From a virus, in IMG/VR virus record IMGVR_UViG_3300027969_000311, positions 1-30,192 of that record: a DNA stretch of 30,192 nucleotides; one strand, 5' to 3'. The notes beneath the pieces were generated by a model. The model ran no database searches. It was not told where the DNA came from and worked only from the letters and a program-made list of their open reading frames with translations. The translations under genes were made by a program, and so were the position numbers. Of this stretch, positions 12,307 to 27,605 are shown piece after piece. The number at the start of each line of letters is the position of its first letter. The stretch's first letter is position 1.

Positions 12307-12843
12307 ATGGGCTGTGCCTCATATTGCGAATCAGGTCTTGAGATACATGATTTAGTATCTTGTGGAGACTATAAACTTGGCGGTGTTTCCGCTATTATAA
12401 TTGGTTCTTGTGCATCTGTATTAGCAGACCCTACTGACCCAGCAGAAATTACTTCTGCATTAGAGGCTGGTACTGCAGTTATGGTTGAAGATATTCGTTT
12501 TGCCTTACCAGCTGGTTCACCTATTCAGGTAGATTCTCCAGTAGGTTGTGGTACACAAATACGTATCAATGAAGACCGAACTGCTACTCTTTACGATGCT
12601 AACGTAACTGACCAAAACAACACATTTTATAATGCTTTAAACCAACAGAAAGTAGGTTGGATTATGGCTTACTTGTGTGATTCAGGTAAGGTTATTTACA
12701 TTGACCCACCAGTAGGTATTACTACATCTGCTAACTTTATCATCCCTGAGCAAAACAATGAACTTCAACGTTATGAAGTTACATTCTCTTGGAGACAAAA
12801 GTCTATCCCTACTCAATTTGCAGCACCAGCTGGAATATTTTAA
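12307..12843 (+). CDS. Probable major tail (tube) protein, 178 residues
   Basis: The gene stands alone between an 88-base gap with its own promoter and a TAATG overlap downstream. Its size (178 residues), beta-rich composition and strong promoter suit a major tail tube protein. The product starts MGCASYCESGLEIHDLVSC and has an acidic, Ala-rich middle (DPTDPAEITSALEAG). It ends with two strong strands, ELQRYEVTFSWRQKSIPTQF, like the terminal strands of tube subunits. No recognisable family motif confirms it. It might instead be a second abundant virion protein, such as a head decoration protein. The DNA is smoother and slightly more GC-rich than its neighbours, in line with high expression. 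Confidence 0.55.
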   Translation: MGCASYCESGLEIHDLVSCGDYKLGGVSAIIIGSCASVLADPTDPAEITSALEAGTAVMVEDIRFALPAGSPIQVDSPVGCGTQIRINEDRTATLYDANVTDQNNTFYNALNQQKVGWIMAYLCDSGKVIYIDPPVGITTSANFIIPEQNNELQRYEVTFSWRQKSIPTQFAAPAGIF

Positions 12844-13802
12844 TGAGTACTGAACTAACAACTAACGATATTACCACATCTTCTAATGATTTAGAGGGTG
12901 TGGTACTATTTGCATTTGGTAAACAAGGCTATTACCAAGCAGCATATAACTTAGCCTATTCAATCAAGTACCATTCACCTAATGTAAAGATTGCACTCTT
13001 TGTAGATGATATTAAGAAGTGCGAAAATGCAACTGGTGATATTAACAAGTATGTTGATTCATTAAATCAAATCGAACATTCCGACCTTTACGTAGATGGC
13101 AAATTTGACCCAGCTATGTTAAAGGTGTCTTTATATAAGTATTTGCCTTTTAAAAATAATCTATATCTTGATGTTGATGCTATATGTTTGAAAGACATAC
13201 AACCATTAATAGATGATTTAGTAAGTACCAAAAGGCATTACATTAGTCATTGTGTGGGGTATCATACTATTGGGTTAGGTCGTGATATCCCCTCAATGCA
13301 ATGGGCATGGGCAGATGACATTTGGTCTCACTTTAAATTAGAAAGTGATTCAATCCTACCAGCTATCAATAGCAGCCTCCAATTCATTAAGAAGTGTAAA
13401 GAGTCCAAAGATTTATTTGGAGTGCTTAGAATCCTTTATACAACTAACCAACTACCTACCAATAGACTTAGAATGAAATGGGGTAATGGTCAACCTGATG
13501 AACTATATATGAATGTTGCATTAGCTATGACTGCTTACGACCCATCATATAAAAATGATGGTATAGTAGGTAAGGGTACTTCTGAGACTGGGTTTATTCA
13601 CTTTGCATCTGTAAGAGGATTAACATTCCAAGAGGTAACTCAAAACTATTATTTTCAATCTTACTATGGAGGTCGTAACTTTACATCAAGATTCTATACT
13701 GAATGGTTAGATAGGTTGCTAAAGGTTATGATGTCTAAAGAAAAGAAGATACATGAGTTTTATATTGATAATATCATTTCTCAAAAATACGTGAACAAAT
13801 GA
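12843..13802 (+). CDS. Glycosyltransferase, GT-A fold, DxD-containing (GT8-like)
   Basis: 319 residues from ATG 12843, which overlaps the previous stop as TAATG. An N-terminal Rossmann-like strand (GVVLFAFGKQGYYQAA) is followed by NVKIALFVDD and then the metal- and sugar-nucleotide-binding motif YLDVDA (D110-x-D112). A downstream WGNGQPDELYMNVAL (near 212-226) has the Q-P-D-E pattern of GT8-like enzymes, and HFASVRG supplies a His typical of the second metal site. The enzyme would move a sugar from a nucleotide-sugar to an acceptor that cannot be told from sequence. It is co-translated with a methyltransferase and sits inside the structural genes, which hints at modifying a virion protein or the host surface. 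No membrane segment, so cytoplasmic. Confidence 0.85.
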   Translation: MSTELTTNDITTSSNDLEGVVLFAFGKQGYYQAAYNLAYSIKYHSPNVKIALFVDDIKKCENATGDINKYVDSLNQIEHSDLYVDGKFDPAMLKVSLYKYLPFKNNLYLDVDAICLKDIQPLIDDLVSTKRHYISHCVGYHTIGLGRDIPSMQWAWADDIWSHFKLESDSILPAINSSLQFIKKCKESKDLFGVLRILYTTNQLPTNRLRMKWGNGQPDELYMNVALAMTAYDPSYKNDGIVGKGTSETGFIHFASVRGLTFQEVTQNYYFQSYYGGRNFTSRFYTEWLDRLLKVMMSKEKKIHEFYIDNIISQKYVNK

Positions 13803-14395
13803 AAGACTTATCTACCAAAAAACCAAAAGGCAGACCTAAGAAGGTCGTGACAGAATCAACAGAAATTGTAACTACTGAAACATTTACTGAGGTTGCAAGG
13901 CATGACTGGAACTCAGAAGATGAAGTAGGTGCTTTCTTAGCATCACTTGTTAAAATGTCAAAGTACAAGACAATACTTGAAGTAGGTGTATTTGAGGGTG
14001 AAACAACACAACACCTTATCAAAGCACTACCTAAAGGCGGTCAATATATTGGTATTGATATTAACGATTATCGTACACCAGCTACCAAGTTATACATGGA
14101 AGAGGGCGGTAAGTCAATTGACTTTATCTTAGGTAACTCACATAATGAGTTAAAGAAACTACCTACTAATCACTTTGATTTAATCTTTGTAGATGGTGAC
14201 CATTCTTGGGAATCAATCCTACCTGAGTTCAAGTTAGTTGAAAAGTTGGTTAGTCGTGGTGGTGTAATTGTTTACCATGATACAATCCATTTAGAAGACC
14301 CTAAGAAACTTGTTGAGTATGCTGCATACTATAAGTACAAGACTACTACATTGAATACACCTGAGGGTCGTGGCTTATCAATCCTACATAAATAA
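13799..14395 (+). CDS. Class I SAM-dependent methyltransferase with basic N-terminal tail
   Basis: 198 residues from ATG 13799 (ATGA overlap with the glycosyltransferase). Motif I is LEVGVFEGET (60-69), the acidic end of strand 2 is GIDIND (D87), strand 4 is FDLIFVDGDHSWE (about 126-138), and strand 5 is GGVIVYHDT (154-162). The VDGDH and YHDT pairing is the pattern of the Methyltransf_24 type, which often modify sugars or small molecules. The first 30 residues are extra: a Lys-rich segment with an AT-hook-like K-G-R-P-K-K core, then a Thr-rich stretch. Coupling to the glycosyltransferase suggests the two act on the same glycan or on one virion protein; the substrate is unknown. Confidence 0.87.
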   Translation: MKDLSTKKPKGRPKKVVTESTEIVTTETFTEVARHDWNSEDEVGAFLASLVKMSKYKTILEVGVFEGETTQHLIKALPKGGQYIGIDINDYRTPATKLYMEEGGKSIDFILGNSHNELKKLPTNHFDLIFVDGDHSWESILPEFKLVEKLVSRGGVIVYHDTIHLEDPKKLVEYAAYYKYKTTTLNTPEGRGLSILHK

Positions 14396-24995: not shown

Positions 24996-25454
24996 ATGAA
25001 CATATCTAAGACTGGAATACAATTAGTCAAAGACTTTGAGGGTCTTAGATTGAATGCATACAAATGTAGTGCTGGTGTTGCTACTATTGGTTATGGCTCA
25101 ACATACTATCCTGATAAATCCAACGTAAAGATGGGTGATGTGTTACGTGATAAAGAAGAAGCAGAAGTATTATTGATTCATACCCTTGAAGATTATGATA
25201 TTTATGTAAGTAAATACACAAGGTCAGTCAAGTTAACTCAATATCAATTTGATGCACTTGTATCATTTGCCTTTAATTGTGGCTTAGGTAATCTCAGTAA
25301 GTCTACACTACTAAAAAAGGTACTTAGCAACCCAAATGATAAAGATATTGCCTTAGAGTTCGCTAAATGGAATAAGGCTGCTGGTAAAGTTGTGCAAGGT
25401 TTAACAAAAAGAAGAGCAAAAGAAGCAGAACTATATTTTAAGGTGGTCGTATAG
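24996..25454 (+). CDS. Endolysin, GH24 (T4-type lysozyme family)
   Basis: 152 residues from ATG 24996, directly abutting the previous stop. The catalytic block is FEGLRLNAYKCSAGVATIGYGST. E15 is the proton donor, and C24 and T30 stand at the exact spacing of T4 lysozyme E11, D20, T26. The Asp is replaced by Cys, as in many active phage members. The second half has TQYQFDALVSFAFNCGLGNL and GLTKRRAKEAELY, conserved in the family. It cuts the bond between N-acetylmuramic acid and N-acetylglucosamine in peptidoglycan at the end of infection. There is no signal peptide, so release probably depends on a holin, consistent with the small membrane protein gene after it. Confidence 0.93.
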   Translation: MNISKTGIQLVKDFEGLRLNAYKCSAGVATIGYGSTYYPDKSNVKMGDVLRDKEEAEVLLIHTLEDYDIYVSKYTRSVKLTQYQFDALVSFAFNCGLGNLSKSTLLKKVLSNPNDKDIALEFAKWNKAAGKVVQGLTKRRAKEAELYFKVVV

Positions 25455-25460
25455 ATAGTC

Positions 25461-25670
25461 ATGGCTATCGACCCTAAGAAATTCAAACAAATAGCCGACT
25501 TACTTATGGTATATTGGCACTTGACTATAGGCTCATTGGTATCTGTGATTGGTTTTTGGCTATTCTTTACTAAAAAGATAGATAAAGAGTCATTTGCTTA
25601 TATCATTGGTGCAGTTGTTACCTTGAAATGGGTGTGGAAACCATCAGATAAAGGAGGTAACAATGGTTGA
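25461..25670 (+). CDS. Small two-helix membrane protein (holin candidate)
   Basis: 69 residues from ATG 25461, seven bases after the endolysin stop. Two hydrophobic helices lie at about 19-36 (WHLTIGSLVSVIGFWLFF) and 44-59 (SFAYIIGAVVTLKWVW), joined by a short charged turn (TKKIDKE). The end is charged (KPSDKGGNNG). Two membrane helices with a tight turn and a polar tail match class II holins. The place right after the endolysin supports it. An alternative is a small membrane accessory of the same module. Its last codons contain a strong SD for the next gene, with which it overlaps by 8 bases. Confidence 0.7.
   Translation: MAIDPKKFKQIADLLMVYWHLTIGSLVSVIGFWLFFTKKIDKESFAYIIGAVVTLKWVWKPSDKGGNNG
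25651..25658 (+). promoter_or_regulatory. Canonical Shine-Dalgarno AAGGAGGT
   Basis: AAGGAGGT matches the anti-SD completely and ends four bases before ATG 25663. Such a site is unusual in this window, where starts otherwise show no SD. It is also coding (KGGN) in the holin candidate, so partly constrained by that protein. Confidence 0.6.
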
Positions 25671-26172
25671 TGGGGTAAGAGATACAATTATCATACATAC
25701 TTTTGATAGTATATGTGTAATAGGTGCATCATGTAAATTGCACAACCATACAACTAGGCATATATTCTATAAAAATGAAGGTTTGACCTTAGTCAATAGC
25801 CTTAATGAAGATTCAAGTGTATTTATTTATCAAAATCAATGGGGTGAATTGCTATATCTTGACGAACAAATTACTAAATTTGAGCCGAAAGAAGAGGTAA
25901 ATGTTCAAAGTCTACCAGTAATACCATTTAGAGCATCAGATACAATACAACCATGTGATGCTAAGTGGTTAATTAAGGGTGAAAAATTGGATTTAAAACC
26001 TTATTCTATACAAAAATGTAATAATAAGATGGTTCAAAACTACTTATATAGTGATTTATCTAACTCAATTGTAATGATGTTGATGTTATTAGCTACTTCA
26101 ATATGGTTATATCGTAGTACATTTTACTGGTTAGACATGATTCGTAAGATTAACAAGATTGTTAAGAGTTAG
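25663..26172 (+). CDS. Membrane-anchored protein of the lysis region, 169 residues
   Basis: ATG 25663, preceded by a strong SD. It has a mixed beta/helical domain with four spaced cysteines (C18, C24, C98, C119) in residues 1-130, then one hydrophobic helix at about 134-150 (NSIVMMLMLLATSIWLY), an aromatic turn and a basic tail (RKINKIVKS). There is no N-terminal signal peptide. The tail's positive charge predicts the C-terminus is cytoplasmic, unless the helix works as a tail anchor. The order between holin and PAS-HisKA genes makes it either a lysis accessory (antiholin or a regulator) or a membrane partner for the PAS-HisKA protein. No family recognised. Confidence 0.6.
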   Translation: MVDGVRDTIIIHTFDSICVIGASCKLHNHTTRHIFYKNEGLTLVNSLNEDSSVFIYQNQWGELLYLDEQITKFEPKEEVNVQSLPVIPFRASDTIQPCDAKWLIKGEKLDLKPYSIQKCNNKMVQNYLYSDLSNSIVMMLMLLATSIWLYRSTFYWLDMIRKINKIVKS

Positions 26173-26174
26173 AT

Positions 26175-26744
26175 ATGTCTACTCAATACATCTTAGCTAA
26201 TTCAATTGATTTGCTATATGTAGTTTCTGACTATGAAGGTAACATAGTGAGGTCTAATGACCTATTCAAAGAATATTCTAGCCACATCAAACCTAAAAAA
26301 GTTAGTGACATTATCTCAGATGATACTGAACTTGACGATTATGTACTATCAGTTAAGAAAGCAATTGAATTAACACCTAATCCAGTTCGTATCTATGCTA
26401 GGACTAAGCAGAAAAATAGTGGTTTAAGGTGGAACTTATGGAACTGCTATGCCATTCTTGGCTCACTTCATTTTATAGGTTTTCAAATTACTGATGTGAC
26501 TAGCATAACAAGTCACGAACATGAGAAACAAAAGCAATTACTAGAAGAGTTCAGGTTTATGTTAAGCCATGAATTACGTCAACCATTGACATCTGTAGCT
26601 GGTGTTGTTAAGTTGTTACTTGATAAGGGTAGTAATATAGGTGAAGAAGAACAGACTGAACTATTAAAGATGGTTGACGATTCAATGAAACGATTAGATG
26701 AATCAATACATTTGTTAGTTAAGAAAGCAACAAGGCAGCTATGA
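26175..26744 (+). CDS. PAS-HisKA protein: histidine-kinase phosphoacceptor part without ATPase domain
   Basis: 189 residues from ATG 26175. Residues about 8-110 look like a PAS domain (IDLLYVVSDYEGNIVRSN, then GSLHFIGFQITDVT as the last strands). A linker helix leads to the H-box EFRFMLSHELRQPLTSVAGV with phosphoacceptor H132 in the full S-H-E-L-R-x-P-L-T-S pattern, and then the second HisKA helix (TELLKMVDDSMKRLDESIHLL). The gene ends at once after that helix. No N, G1, F or G2 boxes of a HATPase domain follow in any frame of the next gene, so it cannot phosphorylate itself. It could dimerise with host sensor kinases, be trans-phosphorylated and act as a phosphate sink, or be a scaffold. Neighbours are lysis genes, and the next gene overlaps by four bases. 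Confidence 0.82.
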   Translation: MSTQYILANSIDLLYVVSDYEGNIVRSNDLFKEYSSHIKPKKVSDIISDDTELDDYVLSVKKAIELTPNPVRIYARTKQKNSGLRWNLWNCYAILGSLHFIGFQITDVTSITSHEHEKQKQLLEEFRFMLSHELRQPLTSVAGVVKLLLDKGSNIGEEEQTELLKMVDDSMKRLDESIHLLVKKATRQL

Positions 26745-26941
26745 AAGAATGCACCTTACCAATGGACGAACAAGAAGCAGATGAAAGACTTCTTATTGTG
26801 GTGAAGCATTATGTTACTGAACGTGAAATGCCTATCTATGTGGCAAAGAATGTACTTAGAAGCAACCTAAGAGATAAGTCTTGTTTTGAATTGCAATGGG
26901 AAAAATTCATTAAGTTAATTGGTGGTTATGGCACAAAGTAA
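26741..26941 (+). CDS. Hypothetical small protein, 66 residues
   Basis: ATG 26741 in an ATGA overlap with the PAS-HisKA stop. The product is charged and helical: an acidic opening (MDEQEADERLLIVVKHYVTE), then a basic segment (YVAKNVLRSNLRDKSCFELQWEKFIKLIGG). There is no membrane segment, response-regulator motif or ATPase box. Coupling to the PAS-HisKA gene means it is made with it in equal supply, so a partner role is thinkable but unsupported by sequence. Confidence 0.6.
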   Translation: MKECTLPMDEQEADERLLIVVKHYVTEREMPIYVAKNVLRSNLRDKSCFELQWEKFIKLIGGYGTK

Positions 26942-27605
26942 ATTTGATGCAACTGATAAGGTTTTTATGTTAGTTGGTGCTATTGTTATGCTGCTAATCT
27001 TCATTCATACTTGTGGTACTAATGGTCAACTTACCATTGACTATCGTAAGATGAAAGAAGAGGTACAATCTTATAAGGTGCAGCACTTAGCAGATTCAAG
27101 TCAATTGATAAGTCAAGCAGTCAATTATAAAACTGAGATTGATTCAAGGGACTTGGCAATTAAACTACTTGCTATTCGTAAACCTAAAGAACTGGTCAAG
27201 ATTCAATACAAGACTAAAGTAGAAACTAAGATTCAACTTGCTGAACCTATTATATTTGATTCAACCAGTTACATTAAGTTACCAGTTGAGTTCTCAGACT
27301 ATAGTGAGTGGTATTCTATTGATGGTAAGATTGACACTTTAGGAACGCTTGTAATTGACTCAATTGTATCAAGTGGTACTTTGACCTATTCGGTAGGAGA
27401 TACGTTAAGAGATGGTCTATTTAATAGGTTACTGAGAAAAACAGATAGTGTAGTTAGGTTGCACATTGACAATCCAACTATGTCAATCAGTAACCTATCT
27501 AATATCTATGTCAAAAGAGAAGTAAAATGGTATCAATCTACTGCATTTAAAATAGGAATTGGTGCATTATTAGGTATTGGTATCAGTAGCCAAGTAATAA
27601 AATAG
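26928..27605 (+). CDS. Envelope-spanning protein with hydrophobic segments at both ends (spanin candidate)
   Basis: 225 residues from ATG 26928, 14 bases inside the previous gene. The N-terminal hydrophobic helix (VFMLVGAIVMLLIFIHTC, about 12-29) is followed by a coiled-coil-like section (DYRKMKEEVQSYKVQHL) and then YKTKVETKIQLAEPI and a beta-rich middle. A second hydrophobic segment closes the protein (AFKIGIGALLGIGISSQVI, about 206-224). C29 sits where a lipobox Cys could be, but the preceding I-H-T is not a good lipobox. The topology (inner and outer membrane ends, coiled coil between) resembles spanins, which join the two membranes during lysis of Gram-negative hosts. Similar Bacteroidetes phage proteins are annotated only as hypothetical. 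Confidence 0.55.
   Translation: MAQSKFDATDKVFMLVGAIVMLLIFIHTCGTNGQLTIDYRKMKEEVQSYKVQHLADSSQLISQAVNYKTEIDSRDLAIKLLAIRKPKELVKIQYKTKVETKIQLAEPIIFDSTSYIKLPVEFSDYSEWYSIDGKIDTLGTLVIDSIVSSGTLTYSVGDTLRDGLFNRLLRKTDSVVRLHIDNPTMSISNLSNIYVKREVKWYQSTAFKIGIGALLGIGISSQVIK

Follow-up and report, generated by a model that had tools for sequence, protein, structure and literature searches.

Phage proteins with a known action on two-component systems are few. According to the 2023 paper on PIT4, a protein of the lytic Pseudomonas phage LSL4 with host histidine kinases as proposed targets, there was no earlier report of a phage protein directly interacting with such a system, and PIT4 sets a precedent for phage action on host kinase domains (PMC10714779). 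Among bacterial proteins, the pseudokinases DivL and truncated ChrS act without their histidine (PMC9491836). The residues of the H-box were assigned by mutagenesis of HisKA kinases, in which phosphorylation requires E/D(+1) and phosphatase activity requires T/N(+4); a hydrophobic residue at +2, a basic residue at +3 and proline at +5 are likewise important for phosphorylation (PMC3510030). The exchange N375Q in the kinase CrdS abolished measurable phosphatase activity, with about 60% of phosphorylation retained (PMC3510030). No published report of the present phage PAS-HisKA protein, or of the cellular class without ATPase, was found in the open-access papers searched. Here, the phage gene is described, and with a probability of roughly 45% we interpret its product as a DHp adaptor gated by PAS, which would pair with host signalling proteins or be phosphorylated by them and would have no phosphatase function.

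The PAS-HisKA gene and its domains

The window, the whole analysed stretch of 30,192 nucleotides of IMG/VR record IMGVR_UViG_3300027969_000311, encodes a PAS-HisKA protein without ATPase domain on the plus strand at positions 26175-26744. The ATG start at 26175 and the TGA stop at 26742-26744 give a protein of 189 aa. Pfam matched HisKA (PF00512) at residues 129-178 with an E-value of 3.9e-10 and 40.1 bits against a cut-off of 26.9. Beyond HisKA, no domain of this protein scored above the Pfam cut-off, PAS and HATPase being undetected. HPt (PF01627) was unmatched as well, and a scan at E up to 1 returned HisKA and, below the cut-off, YtxC.

The PAS domain (residues about 12-106, positions 26208-26492) was assigned from predicted structure only. 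The AF2 model, calculated from 20 aligned family sequences (mean pLDDT 77, PAS part mostly 82-92), arranged the strands and helices of this region in the order of a PAS fold, and the best structural matches in the PDB by Foldseek were PAS/LOV proteins and LOV-histidine kinases. A PDB sequence search with the family profile matched sensor kinases across the linker and HisKA. The predicted PAS fold was joined to the HisKA helix via a DVT linker. Linker and helix 1 (residues 113-154, positions 26511-26636) include the H-box SHELRQPLTS with the putative phosphoacceptor histidine H132 (codon CAT, positions 26568-26570), next to which is E133. Helix 2 (residues 157-186, positions 26643-26732) lies immediately 5' of the stop, leaving a tail of 3 residues. 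No ATPase boxes were present 3' of the stop in the three same-strand frames, which held just ORFs of 66 and 228 aa. The protein contained no DNA-binding HTH domain, and HisKA alone comes after PAS. A sensor histidine kinase has HATPase_c after HisKA, and the PAS-HisKA protein does not. The first-pass annotation had described a phage gene with a PAS-like N-terminal part and HisKA that lacks the kinase ATPase. Its anatomy was correct, with HisKA confirmed by Pfam, a stop after helix 2 and no HATPase, and the PAS-like part was supported by AF2 and Foldseek, though missed by Pfam.

Homologues and conservation of the H-box

Related loci were frequent in IMG/VR viral contigs, with at least 402 detected. 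The proteins read from fetched contigs comprised 131 unique full-length homologues of 183-190 aa, and all had the same end point just past HisKA helix 2. The most distant homologue, L272, showed about 42% identity to the nearest query. A dN/dS of 0.074 was calculated across 30 close homologues and of 0.041 for the H-box alone. Isolate phages (INPHARED) held no full-length relative and gave weak generic HisKA matches only. Two checks had been proposed, namely whether H132 is kept in related phage proteins and whether an ATPase follows in the same gene of relatives. The histidine was present in 131/131 unique homologues, and none of these had an ATPase domain after HisKA. The distant members L104 and L272 retained the histidine with HisKA scores under the Pfam cut-off.

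A chance ORF was ruled out by the at least 402 related loci and the low dN/dS. A truncated or decaying kinase gene had a single point in its favour, that a canonical kinase would go on into the ATPase. It was left with next to no probability by the end point shared by all complete homologues, the dN/dS of 0.07 and the lack of an ATPase-bearing relative.

The invariant signature of the family was H-E-(L/I)-x-x-P-L. H, E(+1), P(+5), L(+6) and G(+11) were each found in 131/131 homologues and R(+3) in 128/131. At +4, Q was present in 127, S in 3 and H in 1 of the 131, and T or N never occurred; the HisKA phosphatase motif H-E/D-x-x-T/N is not found in the phage protein. Based on the mutagenesis of HisKA kinases and CrdS (PMC3510030), H-E-L-R-Q-P-L reads as a phosphorylation-competent, phosphatase-dead acceptor. 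This split of the H-box, with acceptor residues fixed and the phosphatase residue replaced, is the most informative single fact about the gene. Judged by these residues, a receiver phosphatase role of PAS-HisKA is unlikely. In favour of a PAS-gated phosphatase that drains phosphate from a host response regulator, HisKA domains of bifunctional kinases do dephosphorylate receivers, and E(+1) is present. However, the distribution of residues at +4 and the missing phosphatase activity of CrdS N375Q (PMC3510030) make such a drain very improbable. The phosphate sink suggested in the first-pass annotation is disfavoured in the form of a drain through phosphatase action, T/N(+4) being Q. Its mixed dimers with host kinases, or phosphorylation in trans, are plausible.

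The main rival to the adaptor is a non-phosphorylated decoy. It would tie up a host kinase in inactive mixed dimers, comparable to RetS on GacS or to a dominant-negative fragment, or occupy the ATPase domain or receiver of the kinase, and phosphorylation of H132 would be irrelevant. HisKA is a dimerisation and docking domain, and PAS-HisKA carries it without an ATPase. That lytic phages target kinase domains was shown by PIT4 (PMC10714779). The phosphate step may be dispensable because DivL and truncated ChrS function without their histidine (PMC9491836), and the H-box may be conserved as a docking surface instead of for chemistry. However, a pure decoy need not keep E(+1), which is needed for phosphorylation and not for phosphatase activity (PMC3510030), and its conservation in 131/131 homologues renders the decoy somewhat unlikely. 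The absence of R(+3) from L104, L105 and L082 was counted against the adaptor. These three form a divergent 183-aa subgroup with the H-box SHELLSPLSS, in which R(+3) and Q(+4) were lost and H and E kept, and their sequence indicates a possibly altered chemistry.

The lysis cassette and the phage group

The placement of the gene within the lysis genes, already recognised in the first reading, was conserved in 14/14 divergent phages. All of them had an endolysin, a holin-like protein, PAS-HisKA and a small protein of 52-69 aa, and PAS-HisKA was usually preceded by a TM protein. In the window, these genes are on the plus strand. The endolysin is the conserved upstream neighbour at positions 24996-25454 (phrog_7, E 2.6e-51). 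It is followed by a small hydrophobic protein without family match, putatively holin-like, at 25461-25670 and, directly upstream of PAS-HisKA, by a protein with a C-terminal hydrophobic segment at 25663-26172, which is divergent in sequence and conserved in position. Downstream, a 66-aa protein at 26741-26941, with three helices in the AF2 model, is a candidate partner of PAS-HisKA. The ATG of its ORF overlaps the PAS-HisKA stop (ATGA), and the overlap was present at most loci. The consensus of the small ORF in divergent phages was DERLxKVxxxYxxERxMP, and its predicted fold had no significant match in the PDB.

In 13/14 divergent phages, the small ORF was followed by a protein that has a hydrophobic segment at either terminus. 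In the window, it is located at 26919-27605, with 26928 as the likelier ATG start, and its position would fit a spanin-like protein. It had no match in INPHARED phages and PHROGs. With a conserved extracytoplasmic-looking middle and adjoining lysis genes, it is perhaps an unannotated spanin-like protein.

This two-TM gene was used to fetch 77 further loci, of which 73 contained PAS-HisKA and the remaining 4 end too close to tell; the test covered relatives of the two-TM gene at the best 80 loci, and more distant phages without PAS-HisKA may exist. Mean column identity, calculated from slightly different locus sets, was highest for PAS-HisKA (74%), followed by the endolysin (67%), the two-TM protein (50%) and the small ORF (46%). 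The fixed place of the gene in 14/14 phages, between the holin-like gene and the coupled small ORF, and its presence at 73/73 testable syntenic loci would suit a regulator or chaperone of the lysis module. As a PAS-coupled helical dimer, it would bind the holin-like, single-TM or 66-aa protein and directly gate lysis, taking no part in host two-component signalling. We consider this unlikely, since it does not account for the constraint being strongest in the phosphoacceptor motif and since conservation of the neighbours is far lower than that of PAS-HisKA. It is only the gene position that would suggest a lysis-timing or lysis-switch role. A fixed lysis-cassette module might comprise a PAS-gated, phosphatase-dead phosphoacceptor and a translationally coupled small helical partner, drawing phosphate from host kinases as a reading of the host state to set lysis time. 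This extension is doubtful. If true, the host phosphorelay would have a phage-specific branch in this lysis-cassette module.

Two findings link the phage group to Bacteroidota. Its portal resembles those of Polaribacter, Croceibacter and Bacteroides phages, and a Bacteroidota MAG includes a related short contig, which is probably a binned virus. HATPase_c and receiver domains were not found in 26 related phage records (30-62 kb, many of them fragments), with positive controls, and an ATPase encoded elsewhere in these phages may have been missed. With no ATPase of the HATPase class found in the protein or the phage records, the phosphate would therefore come from the host. No integrase was found in 27 related phage records (30-62 kb, most not proven complete), again with positive controls, so a lysogeny decision is unlikely. 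The group is widespread and probably lytic. Between the tail and portal genes at 12789-14395, glycosyltransferase-like and methyltransferase-fold proteins are encoded in tandem among structural genes. The former is of the nucleotide-sugar type by reading, without a Pfam hit, and the latter matched Methyltransf_24 with an E-value of 5.6e-18.

Bacteroidota counterparts, proposed role and known systems

The plasmid search yielded one informative match, the multi-PAS protein WP_015031188.1 of Emticicia oligotrophica (445 aa). Like the phage protein, it has sensor domain(s) followed by HisKA and ends a few residues past helix 2, with 37% identity over the last 97 residues. A search of 247 Bacteroidota genomes with the Emticicia HisKA gave 29 readable loci, 26 of which stop at most 23 residues past the domain, and together with a search by the phage HisKA the set came to 31 ATPase-less and 21 longer proteins; these cellular loci were picked by similarity and the proportions are not a census. 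Due to these genome and plasmid proteins, the ATPase-less sensor-HisKA architecture is seen to recur in the host phylum, and it is not phage-only. Other domain arrangements were also present. In the 211-aa protein L178 (genome G124), a receiver-like domain leads directly into an ATPase-less HisKA, a REC-to-DHp output. The 270-aa protein L305 (genome G143) comprises repeated coiled-coil segments (NKELAFQNQEKEKRAAELI) and then an ATPase-less HisKA with the H-box SHKLRQPVTN.

The phage protein ends within the approximately 25 residues past helix 2 that delimit the Bacteroidota class, and its SHELRQPLTS differs from the common cellular H-box QSHxVRAPL, which has a non-acidic residue after the histidine. 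The cellular PAS(n)-HisKA proteins are also larger, whereas the phage protein combines a single PAS with an invariably acidic residue after the histidine, as in most full kinases, and is encoded in a lysis cassette. No phage copies of the QSHxVRAPL form were confirmed. HMM scores of the phage HisKA for an origin from full or from ATPase-less kinases were close. A function of the cellular ATPase-less PAS(n)-HisKA proteins was not found in the open-access papers searched.

The adaptor reading starts from the domain content, the signature H-E-(L/I)-x-x-P-L, the lack of an ATPase or receiver in the phage records examined, the strong constraint and the fixed place beside endolysin and holin-like genes. 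That such modules are used without an ATPase of their own is shown by the cellular HisKA proteins of Bacteroidota. A soluble PAS-gated DHp (HisKA) module would be made from among the lysis genes and, dimerised with itself or with a host kinase, would present a phosphorylation-competent histidine. PAS-HisKA would be unable to phosphorylate its own H132. A host histidine kinase would phosphorylate it in trans, or a host receiver would hand phosphate back, and PAS-HisKA would reroute or hold host two-component signalling according to the state of its PAS domain. We infer dimerisation, phosphorylation, a host partner, a PAS signal, late expression and an effect on lysis time or host state.

Altogether, a gene in the core of an abundant phage group linked to Bacteroidota encodes a perfect phosphoacceptor box with no engine, and PAS-HisKA probably plugs into host signalling proteins during infection. 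Whether phages tap host phosphosignalling becomes directly testable through two residues, H132 and E133. The finding also draws attention to the apparently little-studied ATPase-less PAS-HisKA and REC-HisKA proteins in Bacteroidota.

Canonical PAS-HisKA-HATPase kinases have the HisKA with full H-box, the PAS and a DxT-type linker in common with the phage protein, which differs in the absence of HATPase, the absence of a receiver from the phage records and Q as the phosphatase residue. In Spo0B/ChpT-type phosphotransferases, a DHp serves as phosphate carrier without kinase activity of its own, as proposed for the phage protein. These phosphotransferases retain a degenerate ATPase-like domain, whereas no such domain follows the DHp of the phage protein and a PAS is added. 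RetS, DivL and truncated ChrS are HisKA-type, kinase-inactive proteins that act on other kinases, as is proposed here. They are large bacterial proteins that have or have had an ATPase domain, and the phage gene has none. PIT4, which resembles PAS-HisKA in its proposed action on host histidine kinases, is an early gene (PMC10714779). PAS-HisKA has a HisKA and no DNA-binding domain and belongs to a group in which no integrase was found, whereas VqmA of the temperate vibriophage VP882 is a DNA-binding transcription factor; VqmA represents a phage-borne PAS sensor tied to lysis control (PMC8284805).
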